From a virus: 45,141 bases of DNA. The notes under the pieces were generated by a model. The model was given only the letters and a program-made list of their open reading frames with translations. It had not been told where the DNA came from and made no database searches. The position numbers were made by a program, and so were the translations under genes. The stretch covers positions 1 through 45,141 of IMG/VR virus record IMGVR_UViG_3300034103_001111; one strand, 5' to 3'. Positions 13,899 through 45,141 of the stretch are shown here, piece after piece. Each line of letters opens with the position of its first letter. Positions within the stretch are counted from its first letter, which is position 1.

Positions 13899-13954
13899 CG
13901 GCGCCCCTTTGGCTTTGCCGATCCGAACGGATTCTGTGCCCACACTCTGTCACC

Positions 13955-14308
13955 TCACCGCTTGAACATTCCGGTAGCGTTCAGAAACGCCACCAATACG
14001 CCCGCGAGCGCGCGGACGGCCGCGATGATCTCGCCGAGTTGCGCGACGCGTTGCAGGCCGTCGCCGTGCTCCACCTCCACCCATGCGACAAGCTCCGCAA
14101 GGCGTTCGCGCCCCCGGCCACGCTCGGGCAGGGCTCGCTCTAGGCGCTTGATCTCGGTGACGATTGCCGGCAGCAAGTCAAGCAACCGCTGCGCAAGCTC
14201 CGGCGCCGTGCTGAGCAGTTGGGCCAGCGAACGGAGCGCGGACAGCGCTTGCCATTCTTCGTCCCGCAGGCCGCGCCACCATTTGCTGATCCGTTCGCTG
14301 ATGCCCAT
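13955..14308 (-). CDS. Helical protein with C-terminal hydrophobic segment, unknown
   Basis: A 117-residue protein. The first 85 residues are amphipathic helices (basic MGISERISKWWRGLR start), and residues 90-112 (LGEIIAAVRALAGVLVAFLNATG) form a hydrophobic stretch that could insert in the membrane. It is next to the holin-like gene and could be an antiholin or a membrane-associated partner. No family is recognised. Confidence 0.6.
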   Translation of the reverse strand: MGISERISKWWRGLRDEEWQALSALRSLAQLLSTAPELAQRLLDLLPAIVTEIKRLERALPERGRGRERLAELVAWVEVEHGDGLQRVAQLGEIIAAVRALAGVLVAFLNATGMFKR

Positions 14309-14362
14309 GGCTTGCTCCGATGTCTAATGTCGCGCGATCGTACACCCGGGCTGCGGATCGTG

Positions 14363-14887
14363 TCAGCGGTCCAGCCTGAGATACGCGTCGATCGCTTCCG
14401 ACGCCGCGAGCCATCCGCGGGCGACGTAGCAACAATTCCCGGCGGCCTCAAGGCTGCGCATCGATTCGACCTGCTCACGCGATGCTCGCCCGGTCAAGGT
14501 CTTCAATTCGACGTAGAGCGCGTGGAATCCACCGCGCGCCACGGGAAGGCAGTAATCCGGGATGCCTGCGCGGACGCCCTCCGCCTTGAGCTTGCCAGCA
14601 ACCGCCGGGTGACGGTCGCCGCCGTTTGGGATCGCGTACATCAGCGACAGTTCGGGATGCCTGACCTTCGCGAGCCTCGCCCACTGCATGAGCGCGACGG
14701 CCTCTTGATGCTCACTCGGTCCGCGTAGCTTCGGGCCTCGCGATCTACCGCGAGGGATTGCAGAGTCACAGCCCGAGAGGCGGGTGCATGAGCCCGTCAG
14801 CGACGCTGAGTGCGGCACTGCCTCTGCTGCCGGCGTTGTTCGGCGAATCCCTGCCCGGGCACTACGCGGCTTGCCCTTGGGTGTCAC
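14363..14887 (-). CDS. VRR-NUC domain nuclease
   Basis: A 174-residue protein whose C-terminal 115 residues form a VRR-NUC (PD-D/EXK) nuclease: D111 in GIPDYCLPV and E127-x-K129 in YVELK are the metal-binding residues, and 'NGGDRHPAVAGKLKAEGVRAG' is the usual preceding motif. The N-terminal 55 residues are basic and low in complexity. The GTG at 14887 overlaps the upstream stop as GTGA. VRR-NUC proteins are common in phage replication blocks and may resolve or process branched DNA. Confidence 0.88.
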   Translation of the reverse strand: MTPKGKPRSARAGIRRTTPAAEAVPHSASLTGSCTRLSGCDSAIPRGRSRGPKLRGPSEHQEAVALMQWARLAKVRHPELSLMYAIPNGGDRHPAVAGKLKAEGVRAGIPDYCLPVARGGFHALYVELKTLTGRASREQVESMRSLEAAGNCCYVARGWLAASEAIDAYLRLDR

Positions 14888-15117
14888 TTTGCCTGCTCCG
14901 TCAAGTGCGACTGAAACTCGCTGCGCCGCTCCGCCATCTCGCGCAGCATGACATCCGCCATCGTCAACGCTTCGTCCAGCGTCGGCGCTTCGCCCTCGCA
15001 GAACCCGCCGTCAAGATCAACGCGGGCGAGCCAGAGCGTACCGTGCGGCATGACCTGAGCCCGGAATCCGTCGCGCTCGGTGACGTAGCGGTCGCCGTCT
15101 TTTGTCCAGTCGGTCAC
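14884..15117 (-). CDS. Small protein, unknown
   Basis: A 77-residue acidic protein (MTDWTKDGDRYVTERDGFRAQ) with a beta-rich first half and a C-terminal helix (LDEALTMADVMLREMAERR). GGAGG is placed eight bases before the GTG start, and the gene overlaps the nuclease start by four bases. The same operon holds recombination genes, but nothing in the sequence reveals a function. Confidence 0.7.
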   Translation of the reverse strand: MTDWTKDGDRYVTERDGFRAQVMPHGTLWLARVDLDGGFCEGEAPTLDEALTMADVMLREMAERRSEFQSHLTEQAK

Positions 15118-31041: not shown

Positions 31042-31437
31042 ATGCAACATCTCGATCCAACAACCACCGGAATCCTCGTGACCATCGGCACCATCGTCGC
31101 AGTGCTCGCCGCGTGGTTCCTGCCGCGCAGCGAGCCCGAGCCGGACATCGGCCTGAACCTTGAGGCCGCCGCGCTCCAGAGCGAGCGCAACCGCATGCAC
31201 TCCGCCGCCGTCGGCGTGGCCGAGGATGTCGGCATGCCGTACGCCATGGATCCGGCGTTGATGGACCTTGCCGACCGGATGGCGCTGGACGTGCACGAAG
31301 GGCGCCGGACGCCGGCCAGTGCGATTCAGCACATGACGGCGGTGGCGAGGCGGTGGACGCGGGAGATGTCTGGCGCGCCGAAGGCGTCGCGTGGATTGAG
31401 TGGTTATGCGCGTGCCACTCAAGATGACGAAGCGTGA
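31042..31437 (+). CDS. Membrane-anchored phage protein with attC-derived C-terminus
   Basis: A 131-residue protein with one N-terminal transmembrane helix (residues 9-27, TGILVTIGTIVAVLAAWFL) and a helical cytoplasmic or periplasmic remainder. From residue 111 to the end (APKASRGLSGYARATQDDEA) it is encoded by DNA homologous to an attC half-site and the leader of an integron cassette (31373-31446, about 85% identical to 31967-32042). The original 3' end was therefore probably replaced when the cassette array arrived. Function unknown. Confidence 0.78.
   Translation: MQHLDPTTTGILVTIGTIVAVLAAWFLPRSEPEPDIGLNLEAAALQSERNRMHSAAVGVAEDVGMPYAMDPALMDLADRMALDVHEGRRTPASAIQHMTAVARRWTREMSGAPKASRGLSGYARATQDDEA
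31373..31409 (+). repeat. attC half-site at the left edge of the cassette array
   Basis: The sequence from 31373 to R' GTTATGC (31403-31409) is identical to the right part of the attC at 31948-32003, but no R'' box lies to its left. The similarity continues past R' into the leader of the next cassette (to about 31446). Confidence 0.72.
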
Positions 31438-31451
31438 CGCAAGGGAATGGC

Positions 31452-31676
31452 GTGGAACCTCAACCAATTGAAACCGCAGAAAAAGACCTGTTTGCTATAA
31501 TTCTGGTTTACCCCGGATGGGCTGGGAACTGGGCGCCAGCCCAATGGGATGGTCATGTATGGCGCAGAATTGGCGCACACTACGAGTTTTCAAAAAACAA
31601 CCCGCCAACTCATTGGATGCCGCAGCCTCCTCCGCCGGATGGATGCCGCTGGCTTAACAAGCGACCTGACGCCTAA
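31452..31676 (+). CDS. Cassette gene 1, DUF551-like small protein
   Basis: A 74-residue protein from GTG 31452 (VEPQPIETAEKDLFAIILVY), preceded by AAGGGA; a GTG at 31434 overlapping the previous stop is the alternative and adds six residues. The opening PQPIETA and the end 'PPTHWMPQPPPPDG' frame a pattern common in DUF551-like proteins. Its TAA stop lies inside the R'' box of attC 1 (31671-31677), a classic cassette feature. Function unknown. Confidence 0.72.
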   Translation: MEPQPIETAEKDLFAIILVYPGWAGNWAPAQWDGHVWRRIGAHYEFSKNNPPTHWMPQPPPPDGCRWLNKRPDA

Positions 31677-31727
31677 CAGTTTGACTTCAGCGGGGCCGAA
31701 GGCATCCGCTGAAAGGAAGTGTTAGGC
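31671..31727 (+). repeat. attC site 1
   Basis: 57 bp from R'' GCCTAAC (31671-31677) to R' GTTAGGC (31721-31727). The inner inverted repeat CAGCGG/CCGCTG encloses GCCGAAGGC. R'' and R' are exact complements. It separates cassette genes 1 and 2. Confidence 0.85.
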
Positions 31728-31728
31728 G

Positions 31729-31953
31729 ATGCCTGACACTACGGATAAAACGCGAGGCGAGGGAACTGCGGTGAGAGATGAAAAAAGCCAACCCGTGATT
31801 AATGATGACGGCACGTTGCGAAACTTTATGCTACGAGTCGGCGGAAAGCCTTACCGTTGCGAATGTGGATGCAACGTGTTCCACAAGCCGGATCAAAAGA
31901 AAGTTGACTTGTACGAGTGCAACGCTTGCGAGACGCGGTTTGAGGCCGCCTAA
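31729..31953 (+). CDS. Cassette gene 2, zinc-ribbon protein
   Basis: A 74-residue protein whose ATG lies one base after the R' box; a GTG at 31771 preceded by GAGGGAA is an alternative start that leaves the conserved part intact. Cysteines C44, C46, C48, C64 and C67 (YRCECGCNVFHK, YECNACETRF) form a zinc ribbon. The TAA stop lies in the next R'' box. Integron cassettes often carry such orphan small proteins. Confidence 0.75.
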   Translation: MPDTTDKTRGEGTAVRDEKSQPVINDDGTLRNFMLRVGGKPYRCECGCNVFHKPDQKKVDLYECNACETRFEAA

Positions 31954-32003
31954 CAGCTGAAATCACGCGCGCCGAAGGCGTCGCGTGGATTGAGTGGTTA
32001 TGC
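31948..32003 (+). repeat. attC site 2
   Basis: 56 bp from R'' GCCTAAC (31948-31954) to R' GTTATGC (31997-32003). The inner stem ATCACGCG/CGCGTGGAT differs from the other sites but keeps the GCCGAAGGC centre. R'' matches the R' that begins its own cassette (GTTAGGC at 31721). Confidence 0.83.
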
Positions 32004-32048
32004 GCTGTGCCACTCAGAACAAACGAAGCGCGACGCAAGGGGAGGGTG

Positions 32049-32234
32049 ATGAGAGAACACGGGTACTACTGGGTTAAGATAGAAGGCCGCTGGAATATCG
32101 CGCATTACGCACCTACCTCCGGCAGATGGCTGCTCAGCTATGAGTACAGTTGCCCGCACGAAGGCAGATACACCGAAGCCGAGCTGATGAAGGTTGCTTC
32201 GGAGATCGGGCCAAGAATTGAGTTCCCGTCCTGA
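32049..32234 (+). CDS. Cassette gene 3, small protein
   Basis: A 61-residue protein (MREHGYYWVKIEGRWNIAHY) with a strong GGGGAGGG ribosome-binding site before the ATG. Aromatic-rich beta strands (GYYWVKI, WNIAHYAPTSGRWLLSYEYS) followed by a helix suggest a compact fold. It ends one base before the R'' box of attC 3. Function unknown. Confidence 0.8.
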   Translation: MREHGYYWVKIEGRWNIAHYAPTSGRWLLSYEYSCPHEGRYTEAELMKVASEIGPRIEFPS

Positions 32235-32235
32235 C

Positions 32236-32290
32236 GCATAACAGTTAATTCAGCGGTGCCGAAGGCATCCGCTGGAGTGCCTAGTTAGGC
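32236..32290 (+). repeat. attC site 3
   Basis: 55 bp from R'' GCATAAC (32236-32242) to R' GTTAGGC (32284-32290), with inner stem CAGCGG/CCGCTG and GCCGAAGGC centre. R'' GCATAAC is complementary to the R' GTTATGC that opens this cassette, as expected if the cassette was inserted as a circle. Confidence 0.85.
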
Positions 32291-32319
32291 GATGGCAAAC
32301 AGCAACGGAGAATGAAAGA

Positions 32320-32535
32320 ATGAGCGACATGACAGATTACGAACTTGGATACGCCGCCGGAATGCGCAGGGCGGCAGTGATTGCCGAAGGATGGAACACC
32401 GGAAGTCAAGCGGCCGGAGACATCCGGCGCGAGGCAAACCGATACGAGTCAATCGCGCGGAACACTCGGGTCATGGAGCATGGCGGGCAAGAATCCGTAG
32501 CGGCTGCCGCTGCCGGCTACGCAACGAGACAATGA
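32320..32535 (+). CDS. Cassette gene 4, small protein
   Basis: A 71-residue helical protein (MSDMTDYELGYAAGMRRAAV) with GGAGAATGAAAGA upstream of the ATG. The end (HGGQESVAAAAAGYATRQ) is Ala-rich. It stops one base before the attC 4 R'' box. No family recognised. Confidence 0.78.
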   Translation: MSDMTDYELGYAAGMRRAAVIAEGWNTGSQAAGDIRREANRYESIARNTRVMEHGGQESVAAAAAGYATRQ

Positions 32536-32536
32536 C

Positions 32537-32594
32537 GCCTAACAGCTTAGATCAGCGGTGACCGCAGGGAATCCGCTGGATGGCACAGTTAGGC
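32537..32594 (+). repeat. attC site 4
   Basis: 58 bp from R'' GCCTAAC (32537-32543) to R' GTTAGGC (32588-32594). The inner stem ATCAGCGG/CCGCTGGAT is imperfect at the outer positions, leaving the unpaired bases that give attC its strand polarity. Confidence 0.84.
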
Positions 32595-32622
32595 GCGAGG
32601 CAAGCACGAAGGAGCGATAGAG

Positions 32623-32787
32623 ATGATGGCGCAAGCAGTTGTGTTGCTTTTCGGAGTTGTGATTATGTTTCTGGCAATGATCCAGATGAACCGCGCGGCC
32701 AGTAACTTGGACACATCCGGGATGATCCGGGGATTCTGGATGACTGCGTTCGGGTGTTTGGTCGCCTTCGTGTCCGGAAAAATCTGA
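32623..32787 (+). CDS. Cassette gene 5, two-helix membrane protein
   Basis: A 54-residue protein with two hydrophobic helices (residues 4-21, QAVVLLFGVVIMFLAMI, and 37-51, FWMTAFGCLVAFVSG). AAGGAG precedes the ATG. It ends one base before a GCCTAAC box. Tiny membrane proteins are frequent cassette products. Function unknown; it could affect the cell envelope or phage entry. Confidence 0.72.
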   Translation: MMAQAVVLLFGVVIMFLAMIQMNRAASNLDTSGMIRGFWMTAFGCLVAFVSGKI

Positions 32788-32788
32788 C

Positions 32789-32930
32789 GCCTAACAGGTG
32801 TTCGACGTCAAACTGACGCGTAACGCCGGAGCATTGGCCAGCGCAACCCGCTGACCCGCAAGGCGAATCACCCGCCGTGACGCGTAACAACAGAGGCCGG
32901 TGATCCCGGGCCTCTGTCTGTTCGTTAGCG
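32789..32930 (+). repeat. Degenerate attC remnants and hairpin closing the array
   Basis: GCCTAAC (32789-32795) is followed by two TGACGCGTAAC repeats (32815-32824 and 32877-32886) and GTTAGCG (32924-32930), with CAGCG...CGCTG between. No complete attC can be drawn. A strong hairpin, ACAGAGGCC...GGCCTCTGT (about 32889-32917), lies between the converging transcripts and may act as a terminator in both directions. No gene is seen. Confidence 0.6.
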
Positions 32931-32936
32931 CACGGA

Positions 32937-33638
32937 TCAGGTCAGCCGCAGCACGAACGGCCCAAACGTCTCGCCGTCAAGCGTCGCCGTGAACTCATAG
33001 TCGCCAGCAACCGCCGTTCCGTCGCACGTAACGATCAGGCACGTTCCGCACGGGCGCAGCAACACCGACCCGGTCGCGTAGCCTGCCGGCGCCGCGGACT
33101 CCCACGTCGCGACGAACGATTCATCCGCCGCGAATCCGACCGTGAATAGCTGCACCATCGCCGAACCGACATCCGTCGCCGCGGCTTCGATAAGCTCAAC
33201 CGGCGGATCCGGCGGAGTCCCGCCCCAACCGCTGCCGGATGGGTAGTCGTCCGCATCGTACGGGCCGGGCGCGCCGCCGAGCGGACCCGGATCGGCGCCA
33301 GCAACCCAGCTGCCGATGATCTCGCGCGCCGCAGTCGCCTGCACCACGAGCGTATCCGTCGCGATCGCGGCGCCAAAGGCGACCTGCACCAGCTTTGTTC
33401 CGGCCGCCAGCGTTACCGTGATCTCAGTCCGCCATTCGCGGCCAGCGCCAGTCCACTGACTGGTCCCGACGCGCTCGCCGTCCACCGTCCACACGGCCAC
33501 TGCGGCGCCGGGAACGTCGATCGTCGCTGTGGCCTTGAGCGTCACCTGCCCGGCCACTGCCGGCGACGTCAGCGCCAGCCGCAAGCCCGGACCCGTCGCG
33601 GCGGTCGCTTTGCGCATCACCAGTGTCAGCTCAGTCAC
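32937..33638 (-). CDS. Ig-like virion protein, last gene of the tail operon
   Basis: A 233-residue protein with two beta-rich domains: residues 1-105 (VTLKATATIDVPGAAVAVWTVDG...) and 150-233 (ending DGETFGPFVLRLT), joined by a Gly/Pro/Asp-rich linker. Immunoglobulin-like folds are common on virion surfaces and help bind cells. It overlaps the upstream tail gene by four bases. Assignment as structural is by composition and context. Confidence 0.7.
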   Translation of the reverse strand: MTELTLVMRKATAATGPGLRLALTSPAVAGQVTLKATATIDVPGAAVAVWTVDGERVGTSQWTGAGREWRTEITVTLAAGTKLVQVAFGAAIATDTLVVQATAAREIIGSWVAGADPGPLGGAPGPYDADDYPSGSGWGGTPPDPPVELIEAAATDVGSAMVQLFTVGFAADESFVATWESAAPAGYATGSVLLRPCGTCLIVTCDGTAVAGDYEFTATLDGETFGPFVLRLT

Positions 33639-44189: not shown

Positions 44190-44669
44190 TCAAGTCTTTG
44201 CCCACGCCTGCGGGCTTGTGAGTCGAACAGTCGTCACGGCCATTTCGGCGTCTGCGCCGTCCGGTCGTGGCGTGAAGTCAGTGGAAACGATCTGAATCGG
44301 GAAGCCTGCGGATCCGACGCGGACCACATCGGCCAGCATCAACGCGCGCTCTACGTCGTCCAGCAAGTCCATGAGTCGATCGCCCGGCAGGTCATCGGCC
44401 AGCCCGAAGGCGCAGGCCGTGATGTCGAACGACCAGTCGGCCATGAATCGCGAGGTTGCGCCTGTGGCGAACGCCTGCGACTCGCCGCGGATCTCGGCGC
44501 GGTAGTCCTTTCGCGTCGGGCTGACAATGATCTGGTCCCGTCGCTCTTGCCGATCGTCCAGCGTCCCGCCAACCTGCACATAAGCGCCGGCCTCGGTGTA
44601 GTAGCCGCCGGTGCCGTTGATCCCGCGCAGGATGTCCGCCAGCGCGGTCACGAGGTCGCGGCTACGCAC
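44190..44669 (-). CDS. Tail terminator-like protein (complete right copy)
   Basis: A 159-residue protein from GTG 44669 (MRSRDLVTALADILRGINGT). A helix, a beta hairpin (GAYVQVGGTLDDRQERRDQII) and a C-terminal beta region (VVRVGSAGFPIQIVSTDFTPRPDGADAEMAVTTVRL) fit tail terminators that cap the tail tube and join it to the head. It precedes the tube gene and follows the FII-like gene. The left contig end carries a truncated second allele. Confidence 0.75.
   Translation of the reverse strand: MRSRDLVTALADILRGINGTGGYYTEAGAYVQVGGTLDDRQERRDQIIVSPTRKDYRAEIRGESQAFATGATSRFMADWSFDITACAFGLADDLPGDRLMDLLDDVERALMLADVVRVGSAGFPIQIVSTDFTPRPDGADAEMAVTTVRLTSPQAWAKT
44456..44582. repeat. Right copy of the exact 127-bp repeat
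   Basis: Identical to bases 1-127. Here the repeat lies inside the tail-terminator-like gene and is followed by 559 bases homologous to, but diverged from, 128-695. Confidence 0.85.
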
Positions 44670-44979
44670 GGGACACCACCATCACCGCTGCCGATTCGTC
44701 GCGCTCGCTGACGCGATCGACGCGCCATCGCTGTTCGCCGATCGTGAACACCGCGCCCGGCCGAGGTGTGCCGATCTCTGCCAGCTGAGCCCGGATGGTC
44801 ACTTGATCCGTAACCACCCGGTCTTCCAGCAGCTGAGCGCCTTGATCGATCAGCACCGTGCACGGCACCTCATCCGCCGCCGGGCCAGCGCGATACGTCG
44901 CCGCATCGCCCATGCCGGCGTCAGCGAACGCGCTGTGTAGCTGCGCGTCCATCTCGGCGAGGAAAGCCGCCTGCGTCAT
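44662..44979 (-). CDS. Head-tail joining protein, lambda FII-like (right allele)
   Basis: A 105-residue allele of the protein at 207-533. The first 45 residues are nearly identical; the loop after VDQ/IDQGAQLL is different and three residues shorter. Synonymous and replacement changes are both frequent, so this is a natural variant, not sequencing error. It overlaps the tail-terminator-like start by eight bases. Confidence 0.72.
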   Translation of the reverse strand: MTQAAFLAEMDAQLHSAFADAGMGDAATYRAGPAADEVPCTVLIDQGAQLLEDRVVTDQVTIRAQLAEIGTPRPGAVFTIGEQRWRVDRVSERDESAAVMVVSRA

Positions 44980-44982
44980 GGC

Positions 44983-45141
44983 TTAGGCCGTCAGCGTCGC
45001 GTTACGCGGAGAAATGTAGACCGTGCAAGTGGTCTGCCCATCAGATCCCGCGACGTGTGCGGTAGCTGCGCCGGTGAGGTCGCCGCTGGCCGGCGTGGCT
45101 GCTGAGTCATCAAATGCACCAAGCCCGCCGTTTGCCGACAC
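44983..45141 (-). CDS. DUF2190-type capsid protein, C-terminal part (right allele, cut by contig end)
   Basis: The last 52 codons of a second allele of the protein at 537-920, open to the end of the contig. Recognisable stretches are the C-terminal NATLTA and ATPASGDLTGAA. It confirms that the contig ends run into the genes present at the start. Confidence 0.75.
   Translation of the reverse strand: MSANGGLGAFDDSAATPASGDLTGAATAHVAGSDGQTTCTVYISPRNATLTA

Follow-up and report, generated by a model that had tools for sequence, protein, structure and literature searches.

An integrase-less integron-type array with inverted genes at the end of a phage early operon

The phage genome and its cassette array

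Between the early and the structural genes of a phage lie five small genes separated by four attC sites, the recombination sites of integrons. The phage is represented by the IMG/VR virus record IMGVR_UViG_3300034103_001111, which was analysed over its entire length (45,141 b) and is called here the window. The two ends of this record are near-copies of each other (positions 1-680 and 44455-45141, with about 88% identity, exact over at least the first 112 b). Such an end repeat, of about 680 and 690 b, suggests a near-complete, circularly mapping phage genome, probably of about 44.5 kb, and looks as if assembly had gone once around the circular map into a variant. The record encodes a terminase, a portal, a head protease, a thymidylate synthase, a recombination-associated exonuclease, an O-like replication protein and a fused helicase-methyltransferase. 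Rightward (early) genes occupy the stretch between about 25 and 31.4 kb, the leftward structural genes start at 32937 and the array is set in between, in the middle of the record, with a GC content of 0.56 against 0.65 for the record. Its parts are as follows.

31042-31437, plus strand: phage ORF of 131 aa (from the ORF list), last gene of the early operon, its C-terminus running into half-site A
31373-31411, minus strand: half attC site A, left end of the array; 39 b identical to the right half of 31967-32005
31434-31676, plus strand: cassette gene 1, 80 aa, DUF551-like (Pfam DUF551, 16 bits, below cut-off)
31671-31727, minus strand: attC site B, complete, 57 b (46.2 bits, E 7e-11)
31729-31953, plus strand: cassette gene 2, 74 aa, phage family phrog_5768 (E 1e-26)
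31948-32003, minus strand: attC site C, complete, 56 b (56.0 bits, E 9e-14)
32007-32234, plus strand: cassette gene 3, 75 aa, an ORF with no family match in profile searches
32236-32290, minus strand: attC site D, complete, 55 b (42.4 bits, E 9e-10)
32320-32535, plus strand: cassette gene 4, 71 aa, an ORF with no family match in profile searches
32537-32594, minus strand: attC site E, complete, 58 b (35.0 bits, E 1e-7)
32623-32787, plus strand: cassette gene 5, 54 aa, probable small membrane protein, from its hydrophobic sequence (family matches weak and all below cut-off)
32789-32795, minus strand: bare R box G↓TTAGGC at the right end, without an attC body, seen in the sequence (here and below the arrow marks the crossover point)

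Half-site A retains its R box (GTTATGC), spacer and L'', while its L' is shortened and joined in frame to the upstream phage ORF; the covariance model used below matches part of it (31374-31389, minus strand, 11.9 bits). The product of cassette gene 2 has two cysteine pairs, zinc-ribbon-like by eye, and belongs to a family that also has members in Felix O1-type phages. Beyond the right end of the array, TGACGCGTAAC occurs twice (32814-32831 and 32878-32895); it resembles the stop-plus-R-box motif TGACGCCTAAC, and the two copies may be remnants of further cassettes.

The covariance model, R1, was trained on 20 attC sites from Lysobacteraceae chromosomes only. Run on the whole window with filters off, it returns exactly four strong matches, sites B to E (35.0-56.0 bits), the best match elsewhere in the 45 kb reaching 17.5 bits. 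Each of the four sites folds singly into a stem, all are on the minus strand and single ORFs lie between neighbours. A preliminary description of this DNA had proposed four complete attC-like sites separating five genes, in the absence of an integrase, at the point where rightward early genes and leftward genes converge. All of this is borne out: the independent model matches at those positions (E about 1e-7 to 1e-13), the ORFs encode 80, 74, 75, 71 and 54 aa, the leftward genes begin just beyond the array, and the integron integrase profile TIGR02249 has no match anywhere in the 45,141-b record. With at least two model-recognized attC sites and no intI in the record, in a position between phage genes within a phage genome, the array is a phage-borne CALIN and not a complete integron. 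As for attI or a Pc promoter, the bare R box at 32789-32795 is the sole candidate seen, and no promoter-like site was found between 30900 and 33000. We are therefore dealing with a true integron-type cassette array that has no integrase of its own.

Exact patterns of the window type were found neither in viral contigs nor in bacterial genomes, and a looser pattern retrieved nine genome stretches, eight of them from Lysobacteraceae (Arenimonas, Stenotrophomonas, Thermomonas and one Lysobacteraceae MAG). The window sites are thus closest in type to attC sites of the Lysobacteraceae/Xanthomonadales, from which we infer that the host of the phage is likely a member of the Lysobacteraceae. The attC queries tried on isolate-phage records retrieved nothing close, except for class-1-type sites in two records. 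Searches for relatives of the 131-aa upstream ORF gave none, and none of the window phage was reached via this ORF and two structural proteins; the head protein, used as a query, led to one 8.6-kb contig and one distant contig, nothing more. The DNA of the array has no match in phage and plasmid collections, the cassette proteins have none in plasmids, and no empty, array-less site was seen among close relatives of the window phage. A search of 395 Lysobacteraceae genomes for phrog_5768 was negative, with positive controls equally silent, so that it is not evidence of absence.

Polarity of genes and attC sites

An attC site is asymmetric: extrahelical bases in its L'' half set the strand that is recombined, hence the R box that is cut. 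In sites B to E the corresponding pattern (R box, 8 b, an extra C or T, a six-base L'', an extra A) is on the minus strand in 4 of 4 cases, and R1 scores these sites at 35-56 bits on the minus strand versus 12-17 bits on the plus strand. In a canonical cassette the gene lies on the attC top strand and forms a unit with the attC downstream of it. The window departs from this arrangement. All five cassette genes are on the plus strand, all four attC top strands on the minus strand, and the genes are thus inverted relative to attC polarity. Since the extrahelical bases fix strand and box for IntI, the mobile unit should be an attC with the gene downstream of it, and not a gene with its downstream attC. 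The similarity between cassettes 1 and 3 begins in the attC half and continues into the leader of the next gene, as expected if an attC and the gene that follows formed one unit. Likewise, a bare R box at the right end would be expected if, in attC polarity, this is where cassettes enter the array. The consequence of the inversion is that the array is not simply a piece of an ordinary host integron.

The same arrangement is widespread among viral contigs. Two pattern scans, for CAGCGG-type and for AAGCCG-type sites, drew 57 and 39 stretches respectively, and R1 confirmed arrays in many of them; drawn by two sequence patterns, these contigs are not an unbiased survey, several are short, and IMG/VR may include false positives. 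With genes called by a home-made dicodon coding model, inverted genes within the arrays outnumber canonical ones by 45:5 and 53:15 in the two sets, ten of the 15 canonical genes of the latter coming from two loci of a single record. Once duplicates are removed, 50 loci are inverted, two canonical and two tied (among the inverted, L126 and L158 share one record, and the two canonical loci, L209 and L210, likewise share one). Genes flanking the viral arrays run opposite to attC in 69 loci versus five. By contrast, Lysobacteraceae bacterial loci scored in the same way comprise 15 canonical and one inverted (viral versus bacterial orientation, Fisher p = 5e-12). Using the orientation of the longest ORF alone, the split of the viral contigs is weaker (36 inverted versus 22 same) because of shadow ORFs in GC-rich DNA, most of which the dicodon score resolved. 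The two viral sets, although picked by different attC patterns, agree, and inversion is the rule in both. It is not universal among phage arrays, since that of Tetrasphaera phage TJE1, checked with R1, has canonical polarity. The sole inverted bacterial locus (L099, in genome G118, contig C241) is a 1.9-kb contig from a genome without intI, and may be viral in origin.

Closer to the window, R1 was run on 82 loci of relatives and found a match in one, L049, a 41-kb phage whose helicase-methyltransferase is 69% identical to that of the window. In this phage three attC sites follow immediately after the helicase stop codon, with minus polarity and genes on the plus strand. The helicase gene of the remaining relatives stops with TGA (rarely TAG) and has no attC site there. 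Facing the array of L049 is a gene for a tyrosine recombinase of the Xer/phage-integrase type (13943-14944, minus strand); we considered it as the integrase of the array and rejected it, its likeness being to Xer and phage integrases and its similarity to IntI weak, far below the cut-off. Two further viral records stand out. A 43.8-kb contig (L129:3575-7077) has ten attC sites, among the largest viral arrays, with several intervals devoid of a clear gene. A 29.7-kb record (L156; G419:5519-6463) combines attC sites with a true integron integrase (474 bits), and is possibly either a mislabelled contig or a phage that carries an entire integron.

These counts bear on the possibility that part of a host's chromosomal integron was captured once, by chance, so that the window array would be an ordinary CALIN in a phage, with no phage pool of cassettes behind it. 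The Lysobacteraceae/Xanthomonadales type of the window sites would fit such an event, and phage CALINs of ordinary polarity are known (TJE1; Qi et al., 2023). A piece of host array would however have its genes on the attC top strand, as do 15 of 16 bacterial loci, whereas all five window genes are inverted, in line with the 50 to 2 ratio of viral loci; we regard this capture as unlikely. Equally unlikely, in our opinion, is that polarity is set by replication rather than expression. If replication and transcription were co-directional, the attC bottom strand would lie on the lagging-strand template, with more folding and more recombination. The inversion is indeed uniform relative to the direction of the operon, and the bottom strand of attC in bacterial integrons is usually on the leading-strand template, limiting cassette loss (PMC11551772).

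Unit boundaries, movement and cargo

If attC and downstream gene move together, their limits should be visible in DNA shared between arrays. Three near-identical blocks bounded on both sides occur in contigs that are otherwise dissimilar and, on the operon strand, each extends from one 5' box to the next 5' box: 430 b with 100% identity (L141/L158), 1530 b with 99.9% (L118/L142) and 299 b with 99.3% (L144/L148, both from one metagenome). The remaining block starts near a site are mostly near a 5' box, with one at a 3' box (L185/L205), and one short shared block ends at a 3' box (L142/L205). The boundaries thus support the predicted unit of attC plus downstream gene, the three doubly bounded blocks being good but not large evidence.

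The blocks also weigh against the idea that the sites are recombination-dead, retained after an ancient acquisition as stable intergenic hairpins with a role in RNA processing, stability or translation control. Hairpins placed just upstream of gene starts would suit that role, and a half site and a bare R box at the ends of the array would suit decay, but neither the near-identical blocks with boundaries near the box nor the retention of R boxes and extrahelical bases in 4 of 4 sites would be expected, which makes such a fate very improbable. That a foreign array was joined to a phage contig by chimeric assembly, as its lower GC might suggest, is hardly credible when the reading frame of a phage ORF continues into the left half site, and when L049 and about 50 other viral loci have the same layout in phage operons.

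A further regularity concerns stop codons. Of 160 cases, 59 have the stop codon TAA of the preceding gene within the box (RYYYTAA↓C), and another 20 have a stop 7 b ahead of it. The inverted unit thus often has a stop codon where crossover occurs. As a plausible hypothesis, attC would have recombined with G↓TTA, the complement of a TAAC stop, and a phage gene would thereby have become an inverted cassette.

The integrase acting on the phage sites would most likely come from the host. Among eight Lysobacteraceae genomes checked that have such attC sites, seven have intI (the exception is G118), and host IntI would thus be available in trans in such hosts. One of the bacterial integrons offers a link to the window: its first cassette, next to an integron integrase that is intact (TIGR02249, 488 bits; integron at L175:354-1857), is a relative of cassette gene 1 (39% identical over 69 aa; L175:1522-1767, genome G273, Lysobacteraceae). 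This DUF551-like gene is inverted relative to its attC (55.7 bits) and has its TAA at the box.

We consider it probable that the inverted cassettes of this phage-borne, integrase-less array are phage-adapted, that the IntI of the host moves them, acting in trans, and that a phage operon provides their expression. On the operon strand the unit would consist of one attC and, after it, a single small gene with its stop at or beside the box RYYYTAA↓C, complement of G↓TTA. During phage replication the infecting DNA would become partly single-stranded, and the plus strand of the array would fold into attC hairpins. Most likely it is the integron integrase of the host, acting in trans on the phage sites, that would then insert, exchange and excise units of attC plus gene at G↓TT on the minus strand. 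Incoming genes would be in sense with the early operon and probably transcribed from it, read-through being suggested by the lack of any promoter-like site found inside the array. If inserted into a host's integron, such units would run antisense to Pc and be hardly expressed, so that the cassette pools of phages and hosts would stay separate.

What such arrays carry is best seen in the viral sets. The large genes that flank them, scanned as a pool and not contig by contig, belong to phage families (helicase/methyltransferase, RecT/Bet annealing proteins, replication initiation, terminase, integrase). Among 108 cassette genes, ten match N6_N4_Mtase (DNA methyltransferases); other named cargo comprises Mom, Dam, a D12 methyltransferase, Lar restriction alleviation and an Acb2/Tad1 hairpin protein, together with a dATP/dGTP diphosphohydrolase, an RNA ligase and NinX, the majority of the genes having no named function. 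As related arrays carry counter-restriction and counter-defence genes, the likely benefit, which may hold for the five genes of the window as well, would be a rapid reassortment of such genes between phages. One may go further, and propose that phages keep their own pool of inverted cassettes, rich in counter-defence genes and shuffled by host IntI, in which orientation acts as a lock, phage cassettes being expressed in phage operons but antisense and silent in the integrons of hosts, and host cassettes antisense in phages; we see this broader proposal as evenly balanced between right and wrong.

Were this so, site-specific exchange of one gene at a time in a large set of phages would explain how quickly their accessory and counter-defence genes are reassorted, and integron recombination, mostly regarded as serving gene capture by bacteria, would be tied to the phage-host arms race from the side of the phage. 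The inverted unit also provides a simple, testable rule to tell phage from bacterial cassettes in sequence data, and host integrons whose first cassette is inverted might be taken as traces of encounters with phages.

Relation to known systems

The preliminary description knew of no such array within a phage genome. In fact, 17 integrase-less attC clusters have been described in phages, some of them virulent, and five of six phage attC sites tested were active with IntI1 (Qi et al., 2023; PMC9892861). Its reading of an integrase-less cassette array in a phage, at the end of the early operon, stands; its suggestion that this is without precedent in phages is not supported, and it had overlooked the inversion of the genes. 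The clusters of that study (TJE1, Pseudoalteromonas phage H101/PH101) are, like the window, attC clusters in phage genomes without an integron integrase, and they include predicted methyltransferases among their cassettes, as do the viral arrays here. TJE1 is canonical, its genes on the attC top strand, whereas the window and the viral sets have the inverted order of attC plus downstream gene. Judged by title and abstract, papers on integrons with anti-defence genes or reverse orientation, subscription papers lying outside this scope, do not describe inverted phage cassettes. Integron parts in phages are thus already known; the literature searched yielded no description of inverted units, of how prevalent they are in uncultivated phages, or of the evidence from block boundaries.

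Chromosomal integrons of the Lysobacteraceae/Xanthomonadaceae (Arenimonas, Stenotrophomonas, Thermomonas) resemble the window in attC length, R boxes, spacer, extrahelical C/A pattern and central hairpin. They differ in having intI and canonical gene orientation, where the window has no integrase, and three of the four window sites have CAGCGG L boxes, unlike these integrons. Cassettes are reportedly also inserted at non-classical attG sites in bacterial genomes, work that is not known to cover inversion or the growth of arrays in phage operons. Action of IntI outside integrons at minimal G↓TT sites, as in the attG insertion attributed to Loot et al. 2024, could explain entry at a stop codon, as in L049.

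Finally, the accessory and counter-defence islands of phage early operons have much in common with the present arrays: in both, an operon ends in small genes that vary, among them genes for methyltransferases and counter-defence proteins. Unlike those islands, the arrays are divided by attC sites, which would allow single genes to be exchanged in a site-specific manner.
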